A DNA stretch of 47,609 bases from Deltaproteobacteria bacterium (GTDB lineage: Bacteria; Desulfobacterota; Desulfobaccia; Desulfobaccales; 0-14-0-80-60-11), in contig VGSJ01000013.1 in NCBI GenBank assembly GCA_016875015.1, positions 1-47,609 of the forward strand, given 5' to 3'. Position numbers and translations under genes: made by a program. Positions 13,687 through 39,222 of the stretch are shown here, one piece after another (the stretch's first letter is position 1; each line of letters opens with the position of its first letter). Under the pieces are notes generated by a model. It did no database searches. It was given only the letters and a program-made list of their open reading frames with translations, and was not told the DNA's origin.

Positions 13687-13825
13687 GTTTTGAGGCCCCC
13701 TGGCCGCCTCCCGGTAGCGCCGGACCCCATGAGGCCTTCCGGAGCACTACATGGCGCCGGAAAAGCCGGGGCAATCCCTGGGGCGTCGAAGTTATTGCCC
13801 GGATCAATCAGGCTGTGAACCAGAG

Positions 13826-15412
13826 ATGACCACTCCTAACAGCGGCTCCCCGGTGGCGGTCAACAAATGGCTGGTCACCATCGCGGTGATGGCCGGCACC
13901 TTCATGGAAATCGTGGACACCACGGTGGTCAACGTGGCCCTGCCCCAAATCGCCGGCAGCCTGGCCGCCTCGGTGGACGAAACCACCTGGATCCTGACGG
14001 CCTATCTGGTCTCCAACGCCATCATCCTGCCCATCACCGGCTGGCTCTCGGCGCTCTTCGGCCGCAAGCGCTTTCTGATTCTCTGCATGGCCCTGTTCAC
14101 CGTCAGTTCCATGTTGTGCGGCATGGCCACCAGTCTGGGGATGCTCATCATCTTCCGCATCATCCAGGGCGTCGGCGGCGGGGCGCTCCAGCCCATCTCC
14201 CAGGCCATCCTATTGGAAACCTTCCCGGTGCAGGAGCGGGGCATGGCCATGGCCATTTGGGGCATCGGGGTGATCATCGCTCCCATTGTGGGGCCGGTCA
14301 TGGGGGGCTGGGTCACCGACAACCTCACCTGGCGCTGGGCCTTCTACATCAACCTGCCCGTCGGCCTGTTGTCCCTGATTCTCACCTGGCTGTTCATTTT
14401 CGACCCCGATTACATCCGGCGCCAGCGGGCCGGCAGCATCGACTACTGGGGGCTGGGGTTCTTGATCGTGGGTCTGGGAGCCCTCCAGGTGGTGCTGGAC
14501 AAGGGGGAGCGGGAAGACTGGTTCTCTTCCGCCTTCATCACCCAACTGGCCATCATCGCGGTGGTGGCCTTAGGTGTCCTGATCTATCATGAACTCAAAA
14601 CCAGGCACCCCGTGGTGGACCTCCGGCTCTTCAAGGAGCGGAACTACGCCGCCGGGGTGACCATCATGTTTTTTTTCGGGTTTGTCCTCTATGGCAGCAT
14701 CATGCTCCTGCCCCTGTTCCTCCAAACCCTCATGGGCTACGACGCCACCCTGGCGGGCTGGGCCCTGGCCTTCGGGGGCATCGGCTCCCTGCTGATCATG
14801 CCGGTGGTGGGCCGGCTGACCATGGTGATGGACAGCCGCAAAATAGTCTTTGTCGGCCTGTTAATCAACGCCTATGCCGTTTATCTCATGAGCGGCTACA
14901 CCACCGGCATTGATTTTTATCACGCCTGGTGGCCCAGGTTCGTCCAGGGGTTTGGCCTGGGGGCCACCTTCGTGTCCCTCACCACCCTCACCATGTCCCG
15001 CATCCCCCAGGAGAAAATGGGCAACGCCGCCGGCATCTTCAACCTGAGCCGCAATCTGGGGGGGTCTTTCGGCATCGCCACGGCCACCACCCTCCTGGCC
15101 CGGCGGAGCCAGTTCCATCAAAGCCGCCTGGTGGAGCACCTCACCCCCCTGTCCCAGCCTTTCAACGATTGGCAGCAGCGCCTGTCCCAAGTCTTGCCGG
15201 ATTTGGGGACCGACTGGCAGTGGTGGAACACCCCCGAGGCCATGGCCGGGCTATACCAGGAAGTGCTGCGCCAGGCGAAAATGCTGGCCTTCTGCGACGA
15301 TTACTGGTTCTTTACCATCGTTTTTCTCTGCCTGCTGCCCCTGGTCTTTCTCATGCGTCGCGGCCCCAAGCCTGCCGTCGCCGAAGAGCCGGGGATAGAA
15401 CCCCTTCCTTGA
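13826..15412 (+). CDS. DHA2 family MFS drug transporter (EmrB/QacA-like)
   Basis: Likely start ATG 13826 (MTTPNSGSPVAVNKW); FMEIVDTTVVNVALPQIAGSL, TAYLVSNAIILPITGWLSALFGRKR; 14-TM EmrB signature. Confidence 0.95.
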   Translation: MTTPNSGSPVAVNKWLVTIAVMAGTFMEIVDTTVVNVALPQIAGSLAASVDETTWILTAYLVSNAIILPITGWLSALFGRKRFLILCMALFTVSSMLCGMATSLGMLIIFRIIQGVGGGALQPISQAILLETFPVQERGMAMAIWGIGVIIAPIVGPVMGGWVTDNLTWRWAFYINLPVGLLSLILTWLFIFDPDYIRRQRAGSIDYWGLGFLIVGLGALQVVLDKGEREDWFSSAFITQLAIIAVVALGVLIYHELKTRHPVVDLRLFKERNYAAGVTIMFFFGFVLYGSIMLLPLFLQTLMGYDATLAGWALAFGGIGSLLIMPVVGRLTMVMDSRKIVFVGLLINAYAVYLMSGYTTGIDFYHAWWPRFVQGFGLGATFVSLTTLTMSRIPQEKMGNAAGIFNLSRNLGGSFGIATATTLLARRSQFHQSRLVEHLTPLSQPFNDWQQRLSQVLPDLGTDWQWWNTPEAMAGLYQEVLRQAKMLAFCDDYWFFTIVFLCLLPLVFLMRRGPKPAVAEEPGIEPLP

Positions 15413-33157: not shown

Positions 33158-36100
33158 TTAAAACCTCCAGCGCAACGACGCCCCCGCGGTAAAGAGCCGA
33201 TAGTTATCCACCCACTCCCGGAAATAGAAGGCATGCACGTCCATGTAAAAATTCTGGACGAACTCCCATTCCAGGGCCGCCAGACCCTGGAGGCTCGGAC
33301 CCCAATTCCCGTGCTGGCTCACGGCCTGCACCGTGCCCTGGAGGATCAGGGTGGGCAGGCGGAAAATCTGCCGGTCGAAATCCACCCCCAAGCCGATGGC
33401 CTGGTAGGCCGCCGGGCTGAAATAGGCGTCATGGCGCTGGCTATAGGAGGCCAGGAAGTAGTGGGGGGTGAACTCCAGGCGCATGCGGGGTTGGCTGACG
33501 GCCTGCCACTTCAAACCCTGGTACAGGGTGAGGCGCCGGTTTTGATCGGAATAGAAGGCGCCGCCTAAGTTCCCCCGCCAGTCCAACCCGGGGCGGAACT
33601 GGTGATTGTACGAGAGATCCACCTGCTGATAGGTGGTGATGCGGGCTTCCGTGAGATTGAGCACCGACTGGTAGAGGCGGGGGAACAGGTAAGCCTCCTG
33701 GTCGAAGATATCCCGGCGGCTGTACCTCAGAGTGGCATCGGTCTTGGGCGTTGGTGAAAAACCCAGCTCCAGAGTGCCCAGGAGGCGGTTCTGGGAGTCT
33801 TTGGCAGTAAACTGCGTACCTCGGGCCACATCGGTGACGGTCCGGGGGATGATAAAAACCGGAAAAAAACCGCCGGTCCAGTAACCGGGAATCGTGTACT
33901 CCCCCCGTTGGCCGATGGAAAAGTCGTCCCGCCGCCAATACCGCCGCAGAATGATTTCGCCGCTGAGCTTCAGGCGGTCATCCACTGCCAGGGGCCCCAG
34001 GCCCAGGTTGACTTCCGCCCGGCGCAGGCGGCTGGCCGCCGCGGCCTGCTGCTCATAAACCTTGTCCAGGCCCAGATCGAAGGTCCCCATTTTGACATTC
34101 TTGGTATTCTGATTGTATTCCCGGTATTCCAAGCCCAGTTGGGCCGGCAGCACCTTGGTGATCCAGAAGCCGCCGCCGATCCGGAAGATGACGCCAGAGA
34201 GCTTGTTGCTGTCGGTGAGATAGAGGGATTCGGGTTGGATGATGGGCAGCACCCCGGAGAGAAAGGCGGGCAGATAATTGCTGAGGCCTAGCCCCCGGGG
34301 TTCCCGGCCCAACCGGGAGAATTGTAAGGGGCGCTGCGCCTCTTCGGGGCGGCGCTCGCCCCGGGAGCCGGGAAAGCCCCGGGAGGCCATCTCGGGCCGC
34401 ATCTGCTGGCGGACATCCTCCAGTTCATTGAGTAACTCAAGGTCCTGGGGCGCCTCCTTCAGGGCCTGGGCAAATTCCTTATAGGCCGCCCCCCAATTGC
34501 CCCGGGACCGGGCTTGACGGGCCCGGGCCACCTGCGCCGCCTGGGAATCGGGTTGAAGATTGATGATCTCCTGGTAGAGCGTCACCGCGTTTTTATCCCC
34601 CATGGCCTCCAGGGTCCTGGCCTTTTCCCTGAGAAAGTCAGCCGGAGGAATTTTCCCCTCCAGTTGGGCCAGGGTGCGGAGCGTCTCCGGATAGTTCTGC
34701 TCCCCCCGGTACGCCTGTGCCAAGAGAAGCAGCCCCTGGGAGTAATCCGGAGAATCCGCCGGGATTTTGGCCACCACGGCCTTGACCCCTTCATATTGGC
34801 GCCGCATAAGATAAAGCCGGGCCATCTCCAGGGGCGCGGCGGGATTGCCCTGTTTCTCCATGAGATGCAGGGCCTGGCCAAAATTCTTCTGGGCCATCTG
34901 GCATTGCAGGAGGAGTTTGGCGATGGATTGATCCTGGGGCCGGCGCTTCAAGGCCTGCTCATAGTATCTTACCGCCGCGGCCCCATTGTCCAACTCCATG
35001 GCCAGCCCGGCCAGGGCCAGGAGCTCCCCGGGGCTGTCCGGCTGCCGGTGGCGCCGATACTCCTGGAGCACGTGCAGCAGATAATCGAGTTTGCCGCCTT
35101 GCCGCCCCAGCTTTCCGGCGAAAAAGGCCAGGGCGGCGACATATTCGGGACCACCCACCCGGATGCCGGGCAGGCGATTCATCACGCGGTCCAGGTCCTC
35201 ATAGCGCGGCAGCCGGGGCAAGATGGAGGCCATAATGAGGAGAGAGGCGTGATGGTAACGGTTTTTCCGGAGATTCACCACGAGCAAATCAACGGCCTTG
35301 GAGAGATGGGATGGATCCGCCGAATGGGCGTAGCCGCGGGCCAGCAGGGCCCGTCCGTCTATGCTCAGGTCGGGCAAGGGTTCCAGTTCCTTCTGGGCCA
35401 GGGCCAGGGCCTTGGGAAAATCCCGGAGGCTGAGATAGGCTTCCACGGCCGCCATCCGCACCCCCTGGTCCTCGGGCTGCTCCATCCGCAGGCGGTTCAG
35501 GAGTTCCAGGGCCTCGGAACCCCGCTCCAGGTAAGTCAGGACCCGGGCCTTCTCCAGACGGGCGGCGCGGTCCTCCGGGGCCTTCTTCAGGGAGAGATCA
35601 TAGTTTTTCAGGGCTTCCGGCAGGTTGCCCAGCCACAGGTAGAGGTGGGCCTGCTCCCGGAGGAGGCGGGGGTCTTCCGGAGTCGGGCATTTTTGCAATT
35701 CCTGGGCCGCCTGCTCCCAGCGCCGGTCCTCCAGAAGGAGACTGATGCGCCGCAGACGCAGATTGACGTCATCCTGAATTTTCAGGACCTCGCCGTATTG
35801 GCTCAAGGCTGCATCGCGGGTGGCGGGCTCGAAAGATAAGACCTCGGCCAGCTGTCTTCTGACCTCCACGTCCTGAGGGTTCTGTTCCAGATAGGTGGAA
35901 AAGTAGTGCGCCGCCTGGCCCCAGTGCTTCTGGTAGAAATGGAGTTGTCCGGAAAATAGCAGCAATTTTGGGTCCTTGGAATTCTGCTGGCGCAGCGGTG
36001 CGATGATTTCCAGGGCATCCTGATAACGGCGGGCATAGGAATAGGTCAGGGCCGCTTCCCAGCGCAACTCGCCTTTGATGAGCTGCCGCCGGGATGCCTC

Positions 36101-37270
36101 ATCCCACAAGCCTGCGGCCTTGGTGAAGCGGTTTTTCCGGGCGTAGAGGCGGGCCAGGTTGATAATGGTTTCCTGGTGGGTGTCGCCCTCCTCCCAGGCT
36201 TTGTGGTATTGGGTCTGGGCCTTGTCGAAATCCCCGATGAGCAGCAGCTCCAGGGCATACCAGCGCCGCAAGGCGGGATCGGGCTGGTGTTGCATCAGAG
36301 GGCCCAGGACCCCTGCGGCTTCCGCGTGATTGCCCTTTTGGGCCCAGAGCCGGGCCAGGTCCAGGGCGTATTCCTTCTGGCCCCGGTTACGGGCGTAGAG
36401 CCAGAGATACTGATGCAGGGCCCGGTCGTAATCCTTGGCGGCAGCCGCGGCCTTGGCCGCCTCCAGGCGGAGTCCGGAATTCTCGGCGCTCTTCTCCAGC
36501 AGGCGCTGGTAAATATCGCTGGCCGCCCGGTAATCCCGCTGCCAATAATGCAGCAGGGCCAGGGAGTGGAGGGCCTCCTGGTCCTCGGGAAACTCGGCCG
36601 CTTCCTCTTCCTGGAGGGGAATGGCTTCTTTGTAGCGATTCAGGGAGACCAGCAGCTTTACCAGCCGCCGACGCACCTGGGGGTCCCGGTCCAGGCCGTA
36701 GAGCCGCTGATAATAGGTAGCCGCCAGGGGAAAATACTGCTCATGGCCGGCGGCGATGCCGGCCGCACTCGCCAGGATGCTCCGATCATCGGGCTGGCGC
36801 TGGAGGTACCAGGCCAGCGTGTCCAACGCCTCCTTGGGCTCCCCCAGCCGATCCAGGGCCTGGGCATGAATGATCAAGGCCCCGGGTCCCGGGTCCCGGT
36901 CCATCATCTGGCGGGAAAGCTCCAGCGCCGCCTTGAACTGGCCGGCATCGAGATAAATCCGGCCCAATAAAACCCCATACTCAGAATTATTCGGGTCCCT
37001 GGCCCAGGCCTTCCGGGCCAGTTCCAAGGCGCGAGCCTGATCGCCTCGGGCTGCGGCCTCCTGGGCGCCCCGGTATAATGAATGGGTTGACCGCCAGAAG
37101 TCATGATCCTGACTCCAGGCGAGGCAGAAGATCCCCCCGATGAAGAGAAATGGCAGAATCCACATCAGCCAGCGGATTTTGTCGGCCTTCCAGAGGAGAT
37201 AACAGATTAGCCCCAGGAAGAAGAGGGATAGAAACAGTATCAGAATAAAGCCGTATGGGGTACTACCCAT
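33158..37270 (-). CDS. Large TPR protein with N-terminal TM segments and C-terminal outer-membrane beta-barrel (PelB/BcsC/PgaA-like exopolysaccharide exporter)
   Basis: 1370 aa; two hydrophobic N-terminal helices, about 20 TPR-like units, C-terminal beta-rich region ending GASLRWRF with terminal Phe; overlaps the GT2 end by 8 nt. Confidence 0.82.
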   Translation of the reverse strand: MGSTPYGFILILFLSLFFLGLICYLLWKADKIRWLMWILPFLFIGGIFCLAWSQDHDFWRSTHSLYRGAQEAAARGDQARALELARKAWARDPNNSEYGVLLGRIYLDAGQFKAALELSRQMMDRDPGPGALIIHAQALDRLGEPKEALDTLAWYLQRQPDDRSILASAAGIAAGHEQYFPLAATYYQRLYGLDRDPQVRRRLVKLLVSLNRYKEAIPLQEEEAAEFPEDQEALHSLALLHYWQRDYRAASDIYQRLLEKSAENSGLRLEAAKAAAAAKDYDRALHQYLWLYARNRGQKEYALDLARLWAQKGNHAEAAGVLGPLMQHQPDPALRRWYALELLLIGDFDKAQTQYHKAWEEGDTHQETIINLARLYARKNRFTKAAGLWDEASRRQLIKGELRWEAALTYSYARRYQDALEIIAPLRQQNSKDPKLLLFSGQLHFYQKHWGQAAHYFSTYLEQNPQDVEVRRQLAEVLSFEPATRDAALSQYGEVLKIQDDVNLRLRRISLLLEDRRWEQAAQELQKCPTPEDPRLLREQAHLYLWLGNLPEALKNYDLSLKKAPEDRAARLEKARVLTYLERGSEALELLNRLRMEQPEDQGVRMAAVEAYLSLRDFPKALALAQKELEPLPDLSIDGRALLARGYAHSADPSHLSKAVDLLVVNLRKNRYHHASLLIMASILPRLPRYEDLDRVMNRLPGIRVGGPEYVAALAFFAGKLGRQGGKLDYLLHVLQEYRRHRQPDSPGELLALAGLAMELDNGAAAVRYYEQALKRRPQDQSIAKLLLQCQMAQKNFGQALHLMEKQGNPAAPLEMARLYLMRRQYEGVKAVVAKIPADSPDYSQGLLLLAQAYRGEQNYPETLRTLAQLEGKIPPADFLREKARTLEAMGDKNAVTLYQEIINLQPDSQAAQVARARQARSRGNWGAAYKEFAQALKEAPQDLELLNELEDVRQQMRPEMASRGFPGSRGERRPEEAQRPLQFSRLGREPRGLGLSNYLPAFLSGVLPIIQPESLYLTDSNKLSGVIFRIGGGFWITKVLPAQLGLEYREYNQNTKNVKMGTFDLGLDKVYEQQAAAASRLRRAEVNLGLGPLAVDDRLKLSGEIILRRYWRRDDFSIGQRGEYTIPGYWTGGFFPVFIIPRTVTDVARGTQFTAKDSQNRLLGTLELGFSPTPKTDATLRYSRRDIFDQEAYLFPRLYQSVLNLTEARITTYQQVDLSYNHQFRPGLDWRGNLGGAFYSDQNRRLTLYQGLKWQAVSQPRMRLEFTPHYFLASYSQRHDAYFSPAAYQAIGLGVDFDRQIFRLPTLILQGTVQAVSQHGNWGPSLQGLAALEWEFVQNFYMDVHAFYFREWVDNYRLFTAGASLRWRF

Positions 37271-38837
37271 AAACCTGCCTCGGATCCATGGCGGGACGCC
37301 ATTTCGGTCTGGTCATGGCCGCCAACACCAGGTCCCCCATGATCCAGATAATCAGGGCGGAAAATATGGAGTTGAAAAAAATCAGCCGGGGCTCACCCCA
37401 TCCTTGCAAAAGGGCCAGCACCGGCAGGCTCACGTGCAGGAAAATGAAGCCCAAATGGAGCGCCAGATGCCACCATGATCCCTGAGAAGCGAAGGGCTGA
37501 AGATTGTTGACCCGGTAAACGGGTTTGCGACCCGGAGGATAAAGCAGGGCCGCAAGGATGGCCACGGCGTGCACCGGAAACAGGCTGCAGAGCGTTTTGA
37601 ACTGCCGGAGAGGCTCGTTGCCGAAAAAGAGATAACGGAACATCAAGATGGTGGCCAAAAGATAGGCGCCCCGGAGGGCCCCGTAGGTCAGTTCATCACC
37701 CAGGACGCAGGATTGACCGCGCCAATAAACCAGGAGCGGGGCGGTGTAAAACACGGGGAATGCCAGGCCACTGGTCAGATAACTCATCATAATGATGAGA
37801 AAATGAATCTTCTGGGTCCAGGAGAGACCTGATTTGAACAGGGGGTTATCCCAAAAAAAGAGGCGCATGGTATCCAGGCACCACTGAAAGCGCTGGCGAT
37901 AGACCCCGGCCAGGGTCGCGGGGGCCAGGCCCCGGGACAGGGCGTGGGGATAGTAAATTCCCCGCCAGCCCCGGCTGGCCAATTCATAAGACGAAGTGAA
38001 ATCTTCCAGCAGATTCCAGGAGGCGAATCCCCCCATCTCCTCAAGAGCCTGGCGGCGGTACACCACCCCGGAACCACAGGAGACCACGGCATTGGCCCGA
38101 TTATTATTCAACTGGATGGTCTCGTAAAACACCTTATCGCTGTTGTAGAACGGATCACCTTCCGGCAAGAAAAAGTCTTGCTTGCTCTGGACATAGCCCA
38201 CCTGCGGCTGGAGGAAAAAACTTGCCAGCCGGTTCAGGATTTCCGGCGCCGGCACCTGGTCAGCGTCCAACACCAGGATCAATTTCCCGCGGCTGCGGCT
38301 TAAACCGAAATTGAGGTTACCGCTCTTGGAATCGGCCCGCGGCAAACCTGCCTTCGGCCGCGAGAGGTAATGAAATCCCAAGGATTGGGCCAAGGCCGCC
38401 ACTGCCTGGGACTCGCCATCGTCCAGGACATAGACCTCCAGGGGATGGTAGGCAATCCGCCGGACGGCTTTGAGAGTGGTCGTGATGATTGCCAAAGGTT
38501 CGCCGCAGCACGGCACAAAGACGTCCACGGAGAGACGGGTCTTGGACTCCAGGTTTCCCGGGAGAGGGCTCAGGAGACGCCAGGCACTGTAGCTTAAGAG
38601 GCAGAGGAGAAGGTAGGACAGGATTTCGGCGACGAAGAAAAAGATATCCGGCGATCCTCGGCTGGCGAGCACCAGCCGGCCCAGCCAGATCAGGTAGGCC
38701 AGCCCTAACGTCAAGGCCATCAGGGAAAAAATCTGGGCCTCGCGGCGGCGCGCCGGTTCCGTCGGGCCGCTGACAGGCTCAACCACTACGAGGCGCGGCG
38801 CCGCCGCTCCCCAAAGCAAACGGGGATTCTTACGCAT
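37263..38837 (-). CDS. Processive family 2 glycosyltransferase (BcsA-like, no PilZ domain)
   Basis: 524 aa; VYVLDDGES, LVLDADQVPAPEI, LEDFTSSYELASRGWRGIYYP (TED-like), YRQRFQWCLD (QxxRW variant), multiple TM helices. Confidence 0.88.
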   Translation of the reverse strand: MRKNPRLLWGAAAPRLVVVEPVSGPTEPARRREAQIFSLMALTLGLAYLIWLGRLVLASRGSPDIFFFVAEILSYLLLCLLSYSAWRLLSPLPGNLESKTRLSVDVFVPCCGEPLAIITTTLKAVRRIAYHPLEVYVLDDGESQAVAALAQSLGFHYLSRPKAGLPRADSKSGNLNFGLSRSRGKLILVLDADQVPAPEILNRLASFFLQPQVGYVQSKQDFFLPEGDPFYNSDKVFYETIQLNNNRANAVVSCGSGVVYRRQALEEMGGFASWNLLEDFTSSYELASRGWRGIYYPHALSRGLAPATLAGVYRQRFQWCLDTMRLFFWDNPLFKSGLSWTQKIHFLIIMMSYLTSGLAFPVFYTAPLLVYWRGQSCVLGDELTYGALRGAYLLATILMFRYLFFGNEPLRQFKTLCSLFPVHAVAILAALLYPPGRKPVYRVNNLQPFASQGSWWHLALHLGFIFLHVSLPVLALLQGWGEPRLIFFNSIFSALIIWIMGDLVLAAMTRPKWRPAMDPRQVYG

Positions 38838-38851
38838 TGTAAGAATCCCCG
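38821..38851 (-). promoter_or_regulatory. Perfect 13-bp hairpin with the GT2 start codon in its loop
   Basis: Minus strand CGGGGATTCTTAC-AATGC-GTAAGAATCCCCG; ATG at 38837-38835 is in the 5-nt loop. Confidence 0.85.
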
Positions 38852-38852
38852 C

Positions 38853-38903
38853 TTACCCGTGCCGGATTGTGACCGTAAAGTTACAACAGCCAAGGTGTGT
38901 CAT
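38853..38903 (-). CDS. Putative leader peptide uORF, MTHLGCCNFTVTIRHG
   Basis: AAGGAGG Shine-Dalgarno 8 nt upstream of ATG; 16 sense codons then TAA, 1 nt before the start-codon hairpin. Confidence 0.5.
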   Translation of the reverse strand: MTHLGCCNFTVTIRHG

Positions 38904-38904
38904 G

Positions 38905-38967
38905 AACATTCCCTCCTTGGAATGTTGAGCCGTAGCTGGCAAAATAGCCCGGCAAGACTTTTTTGCC
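38905..38967 (-). promoter_or_regulatory. Structured leader upstream of GT2 (SD-loop hairpin and alternative upstream stems)
   Basis: AACATTCC-AAGGAG-GGAATGTT (38905-38926) and GGCAAAA...TTTTGCC (38938-38967) with the competing TTGCC at 38951-38955. Confidence 0.45.
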
Positions 38968-39222
38968 AATGGTGCTGTCGTTACCCCTATTTTAAATAAT
39001 TGTCAATATAATAATTACTTATTTAGAAGTTTTTTAATCAACCGTTAAACTACTTTATATTTGATCTCGGTTGCCAGGGCCGGCTCACCCAAAAATCCCT
39101 TAGACCCAAACGATCTGAGAAAAATTCCCGGGCCCTGAATTTTACGGCAACCGACGTCACCCCTGAAAAGTAAGGATAGATTGGTCAATTGGGCGAACCC
39201 CTCTTTGCCGTCCCTCGTCCCC

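Follow-up and report, generated by a model that had tools for sequence, protein, structure and literature searches.

The window analysed here, a stretch of 47,609 nucleotides, comes from a contig of a 3.1-Mb metagenome-assembled genome (MAG) of the Desulfobaccales, and the features described below lie on its minus strand. The central gene of the locus (37263..38837) encodes a GT2 synthase of 524 aa that is cellulose-synthase/PgaC-like. Its best NCBIfam match is CelA (TIGR03030) at 200.6 bits, under the cut-off of 699 for that model, and no PilZ domain was found in it by Pfam. The next gene of the operon (33158..37270) overlaps GT2 by 8 nt and encodes a TPR protein of 1370 aa with a PgaA-like barrel (PF21197, weak; TIGR03939, 92 bits, under its cut-off). 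The adjacency of the GT2 and TPR genes is kept in nearly all relatives and a DUF218 gene lies upstream of GT2 in only 4 of 13 contigs; the leader thus travels with GT2. A literature search on exopolysaccharide in the Desulfobaccales returned no papers.

Upstream of GT2, the sequence together with the genus alignment suggests a possible sigma-70-like promoter (TTGACA-17 nt-TAACGA, 38978..39006); it is weak, and a consensus promoter scan gave no match for it. The TTGANA element at 39006 is conserved in the genus alignment and would put the transcription start upstream of the two hairpins that flank the leader ORF. A third hairpin, TTGGCAAAAAAGTC..GGGCTATTTTGCCAG (38936..38969), occurs in this genus only and lies at what is likely the 5' end of the leader. 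The leader is present once in the genome, which rules out a dispersed repeat or mobile palindrome. A c-di-GMP riboswitch, the first guess for a GT2 leader, was discarded when an Rfam search of the leader matched no riboswitch or known leader family. Also rejected was a large multibranch fold pairing GGGGUAACGACAGC with GCUGUUGUAACUUU: it could form only if transcription covered the likely promoter region, and the genus alignment does not preserve it.

The leader ORF and its two hairpins

The leader cistron, or uORF (38853..38903), has 16 codons (MTHLGCCNFTVTIRHG). It begins with AAGGAGG (38918-38912), an 8-nt spacer, and ATG (38903-38901), and it ends with TAA (38855-38853), exactly where an earlier, sequence-only reading of this DNA had placed these elements. 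Its Shine-Dalgarno (SD) sequence forms the loop of a hairpin, AACATTCC-AAGGAG-GGAATGTT (38905..38926), in which an ANGGAN hexaloop (38918-38913) caps an 8-bp stem. This candidate CsrA site, absent from the sequence-only reading, points to a specific regulator that could act on uORF translation.

The start-codon hairpin (38814..38858), identified from folding, covariation, and comparison within the genus and family, holds the GT2 ATG (38837-38835) inside a 5-nt loop, AATGC, between the arms CGGGGATTCTTAC (38851-38839) and GTAAGAATCCCCG (38833-38821). The perfect stem described earlier was exact in its 13-bp Watson-Crick core (38821-38833 with 38839-38851), which a single nucleotide, G38852, separates from the uORF stop, and in its loop; the stem found by RNAfold, however, is longer, reaching 20 bp with G-U/A-U pairs (38858-38839 with 38833-38814), so that the uORF stop codon lies inside the 5' arm. 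The 5' arm also carries the only SD-like G run nearby, which had rightly been assigned to the stem, and the 3' arm consists of GT2 codons 2-8. For the 50 nt surrounding the GT2 start the fold energy is -31.6 kcal/mol, versus -10.2 ± 2.4 kcal/mol for dinucleotide shuffles (z -8.8, 0/300), the lowest value among the 30 ORF starts of the window, and the 221-nt leader as a whole has a folding z of -5.9. A search for the exact pattern of a hairpin around a start codon, run across 395 genomes of the phylum, found it in 4, every time at the GT2 start. Elsewhere in the window, on the plus strand, another predicted hairpin (13 pairs, -17.7 kcal/mol) carries in its loop the start of an ORF at 13751-15412.

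A start codon and SD-like run buried in a stem could also reflect simple occlusion of the start by an RNA thermometer, or by a structure relieved by another RNA or a protein, with no coupled uORF. Such an arrangement is highly improbable, as the hairpin appears too stable for a thermal switch and its presence across the family follows that of the uORF.

Conservation and covariation across the family

The family set comprised 22 genomes of 9 genera (here g1 to g9), with 20 readable leaders. The other three genomes of the window's genus keep the uORF, the SD hairpin, and the start hairpin. Of the 20 family leaders, 13 show a clear start hairpin and one (G015) a weaker one, but all genomes are MAGs and related, and these 14 leaders do not amount to 14 independent observations. 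Its z ranges from -2.3 to -8.8 in 13 of the 17 leaders examined. The hairpin is absent from G017, G008, the three g4 genomes, and G010, which has a short GGAA-GTGGC-TTCC palindrome in its place. Because both major groups of the GT2 tree contain hairpin-bearing genera, the family probably inherited the start hairpin from its ancestor, with probable losses in g4, g6, and G017. In one genome (G002) the leader lies on three contig ends (L038, L034, L039), one of them after a GDP-mannose dehydratase-like gene, and may be duplicated; the GT2 frame there is shortened beside an IS200/IS605 transposase-like ORF (L039:75-566) and may be disrupted.

The two arms of the start hairpin change in concert. 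The pair GGATTCTTAC/GTAAGAATCC is replaced by GGATTCCGGC/GCCGGAATCC in G021, by GGGTTCTC/GAGAACCC in G004, and by GAGGGGA..CCTG/CAGG..TCCCCTC in G011. When the arms of one leader per genus were cross-folded, the own combination of 5' and 3' arms paired best among 40,320 permutations. Compensatory changes were found in 7 of 13 pairs in a MAFFT alignment not fitted to structure; 92% of alignment cells are paired, 17 cells carry double changes versus 6.4 expected, and the covariation score is 0.380 versus 0.236, with 0 of 500 shuffles reaching the observed pairing or covariation. Covariation is far above that of slid controls, and RNAalifold independently recovers the same start-codon helix. In the whole-leader alignment, MAFFT put the 5' arm wrongly in 3 of 7 rows.

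This pattern bears on whether the palindrome might instead serve as an operator, bound at the DNA level by a transcription factor, with an incidental uORF beside it. A 13-bp inverted repeat is the usual form of an operator, but the arms vary while their pairing is kept (GGATTCTTAC, GGGTTCTC, GGATTCCGGC, GAGGGGAACCTG), the distance between them varies (4 to about 10 nt), and in every case the repeat flanks the start codon on both sides, all of which leaves an operator with very little probability. A transcription attenuator, in which the hairpin would be an intrinsic terminator within early GT2 and uORF translation would stop its formation behind RNA polymerase, is unlikely. It would account for the 9-12 T found in the 15 nt after the stem in g7, g2, and g3 (L007, L008, L010-L012, L014, L015, L021) and for the preference of early Phe codons for TTT (22:7 versus 282:276 in the remainder of the genes, p 0.008). 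In the window's genus, however, GTTTGCTTTGGGG comes after the stem and is itself partly paired in it, and a terminator scan makes no call at the window hairpin; nor would a terminator need to enclose the start codon, as the hairpin always does. The U run in g7, g2, and g3 could add transcriptional attenuation there.

An upstream reading frame is as regular a feature of these leaders as the stem. An SD sequence with ATG, GTG, or TTG lies 38-83 nt before the GT2 start in all 15 leaders that have a separate GT2 start, and in each the upstream frame ends between -19 and +5 of the GT2 start or enters GT2 in frame (15/15 versus 9.6 expected, p 0.0008 by shuffling, from related leaders that are dependent observations). 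The uORF ranges from 9 to 25 codons across the family, and its stop position varies between genera, always near the GT2 start. In g7 the uORF stops overlap the GT2 start as ATGA or ATGAGTAA, and the frame switches between overlapping and in-frame among close relatives. Overlaps of these forms are textbook coupling junctions. The upstream start and GT2 share one frame in G014 and G019, so coupling is not needed for synthesis there. In the three g4 genomes the start at the SD hairpin is the GT2 start itself, in frame, and the downstream hairpin is missing; on comparative grounds, this arrangement shows that the start at the SD hairpin is a real initiation site.

These in-frame leaders (g4, G014, and G019) would also fit an upstream GT2 start in the window, where the uORF would be a frameshifted or mis-assembled N-terminus. 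That is very unlikely: the four genus members, with leaders 79-85% identical, agree in stop and frame, the stops of different genera fall at different positions yet always near the GT2 start, and protein similarity to other genera begins at MSKNP/MRKNP.

Whereas the start, frame, 16-codon length, and stop of the uORF are kept without an indel in all four genus members, its peptide is not. No peptide residue is common to different genera, the variable columns within the genus number 8/6/5 at codon positions 1/2/3 with no third-position excess, and nearly all codon differences within the genus are nonsynonymous; the genus comparison thus revealed no purifying selection on uORF codons. With no selection at the codon level, the case for uORF translation rests on start, frame, and position. 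The sequence-only reading had proposed checking related genomes for covariation of the stem and for conserved uORF codons; the stem covaries and the uORF is present, but neither its codons nor its peptide are conserved.

A regulatory nascent peptide, with the Cys-Cys pair or the TVRHG end stalling the ribosome on a signal, is the least credible of explanations for such a frame. The ATVRHG/TIRHG end is indeed conserved within the genus, but this is because it adjoins, and in part falls within, the 5' arm. The family comparison revealed no conserved arrest sequence, and the spread of uORF lengths tells against one as well. Stalling at Cys-Cys, suggested earlier, is not supported, as CC is private to the window genome and the other three genus members have RC, RC, and RF. 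The accompanying idea that a stalled ribosome acts as the control by keeping the stem closed is likewise unsupported: a ribosome modelled at Cys-Cys does leave the GT2 start region closed, but on a peptide that is not conserved. Since the peptide is unconserved and the frame flips in g7, what is kept would be the passage of the ribosome and not the peptide product.

The uORF and start hairpin are also lost jointly. G017 and G008, which are without the uORF start, and the three fused g4 leaders are all without the start hairpin (hypergeometric 0.0004, kinship ignored). In G017 the 3' arm, which is coding, is present, the 5' arm is missing, and ATA stands at the position of the uORF start; no csrA gene was found in this 98% complete genome. 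Joint loss of the uORF start and hairpin is what coupling would predict.

Probable translational coupling and CsrA as a candidate regulator

In the free RNA, the SD-like run of GT2 and codons 2-6 are paired, with an unpaired probability of 0.001. With a ribosome modelled at the uORF stop, the mean unpaired probability of +4..+16 rises from 0.001 to 0.27. The earlier proposal that uORF translation melts the stem and permits GT2 initiation thus gains from the joint retention of hairpin and uORF, the compensatory changes, and a stop codon so placed, in every case, that a ribosome finishing there would sit over the 5' arm, and translational coupling of the uORF and GT2 is quite likely on these comparative grounds.

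The upstream hairpin points to a possible input. The segment TTCCANGGAGGGAA is unchanged apart from N in 7 leaders from 6 genera and is single-copy in the window genome. An ANGGAN hexaloop closed by C-G lies over the uORF SD in g1, g2, g3, g4, g5, and g9, where A, G, C, or T stands at N. Any SD, however, can be expected to contain GGA. Given the core ANGGA, the chance of a stem of 5 to 8 pairs is about 0.001 to 0.00007 with equal base use. The motif TTCCANGGANGGAA occurs in 33 copies in the 22 genomes, 12 of them being the family leaders examined here, whereas its reversed control occurs 9 times. In form the hexaloop matches the high-affinity CsrA/RsmE element, in which ANGGAX sits immediately atop a stem (PMC4005645).

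Of the 22 genomes, 20 encode CsrA, with the RNA-binding residues Leu4 and Arg44 kept. In the window genome one frame of 263 aa (L058:396-1187, minus strand) is a CsrA-FliW fusion (Pfam CsrA 12-61, FliW 121-241), and CsrA-carrying frames of 244-269 aa occur in the other genus genomes and in G010 (L067, L072, L074, L075). FliW is the usual antagonist of CsrA; no papers on CsrA-FliW fusions were found in the literature. In Geobacter, a member of the same phylum, biofilm is doubled when csrA is deleted, and exopolysaccharide falls when FliW is lost (PMC13407953). In two g4 genomes (L087, L088) a hexaloop of this type, TTCCACGGAGGGAA, supplies the SD for a gene encoding a LuxR-type response regulator (MKTRIIIADDHMIVRQGL...), another candidate CsrA target.

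A block of the uORF by CsrA is proposed on the basis of the hexaloop form, the presence of CsrA, and the Geobacter biofilm data, and whether CsrA regulates the coupling is close to an even call. In g7 and g8 the hexaloop is missing or changed, and G021 has the start hairpin and no GGA loop. With g7 and g8 lacking the intact site, CsrA cannot be the ancestral or the only input; g7 shows, at the level of its leaders, the coupler persisting where the hexaloop has been lost.

Taken together, these features suggest a two-stage translational gate, with a probability of roughly 0.7, in which leader-cistron coupling of the exopolysaccharide operon would be gated by CsrA. In the first stage, ribosomes would load on the SD that the upstream hairpin exposes in its loop and would translate the short leader cistron, whose amino-acid sequence would be irrelevant. 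In the second, a ribosome ending the leader cistron would cover the 5' arm of the start-codon hairpin, and the GT2 start would thereby be freed for initiation, whether by that ribosome or by a later one. If the leader were not translated, the GT2 start would remain in its 5-nt loop on a 13-20-bp stem. The control point would be the amount of uORF initiation, and the input would most likely be CsrA, which by binding the ANGGAN hexaloop would hide the uORF SD and leave GT2 silent. A broader generalization is more tentative and somewhat doubtful: a family-wide leader, new to the Desulfobacterota, in which CsrA (FliW-fused in this genus) would act on the synthase solely via a sequence-neutral, freely evolving coupler ORF that may be separate, overlapping, or in-frame.

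In E. coli, CsrA represses the 27-codon ORF27/idlP, whose stop overlaps iraD (Park et al. 2017, PMC5574718). Translation of idlP opens the iraD ribosome binding site, and this CsrA-controlled leader-ORF coupling was described as a novel mechanism (PMC5574718). The present leader is similar in its short uORF with its own SD, a CsrA-type site over that SD (a candidate here), a uORF stop at the downstream start, a structure hiding the downstream ribosome binding site (predicted here), and a downstream gene that would likewise be read via coupling. The two are unrelated in sequence and lineage and are not homologous: iraD encodes an antiadapter and GT2 a polysaccharide synthase, iraD has four CsrA sites in contrast to the one hexaloop hairpin here, and here the start codon itself lies in the hairpin loop. 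CsrA binding and coupling are known for iraD, whereas conservation across genera and covariation are shown for the GT2 leader.

In the case of pgaA, CsrA works through the SD of the gene itself and through Rho termination (review PMC7652899). The pgaABCD operon resembles the present one as an exopolysaccharide synthase/exporter operon with GGA sites at the start region; here, in contrast, the candidate CsrA site lies over the leader ORF and not over the gene's own SD. In tap-repA of IncFII plasmids, the downstream gene depends on a short leader ORF being translated. The same requirement holds in the B12 riboswitch-uORF of M. tuberculosis (PMC11260477). Both differ from the GT2 leader, in which no riboswitch or antisense RNA was found by Rfam. 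The leader would thus be a variant of leader-cistron coupling, for which membership in the CsrA regulon is proposed.

The GT2 leader would place the logic of iraD/idlP in an unrelated lineage and on a biofilm-polysaccharide operon. Covariation, joint loss, and frame flips separate the view that ribosome passage matters from the view that the peptide matters, and the leader would show that a uORF can be functional even when its peptide is not conserved. For the uncultured Desulfobacterota, the leader gives an easily tested model of possible CsrA control over exopolysaccharide.
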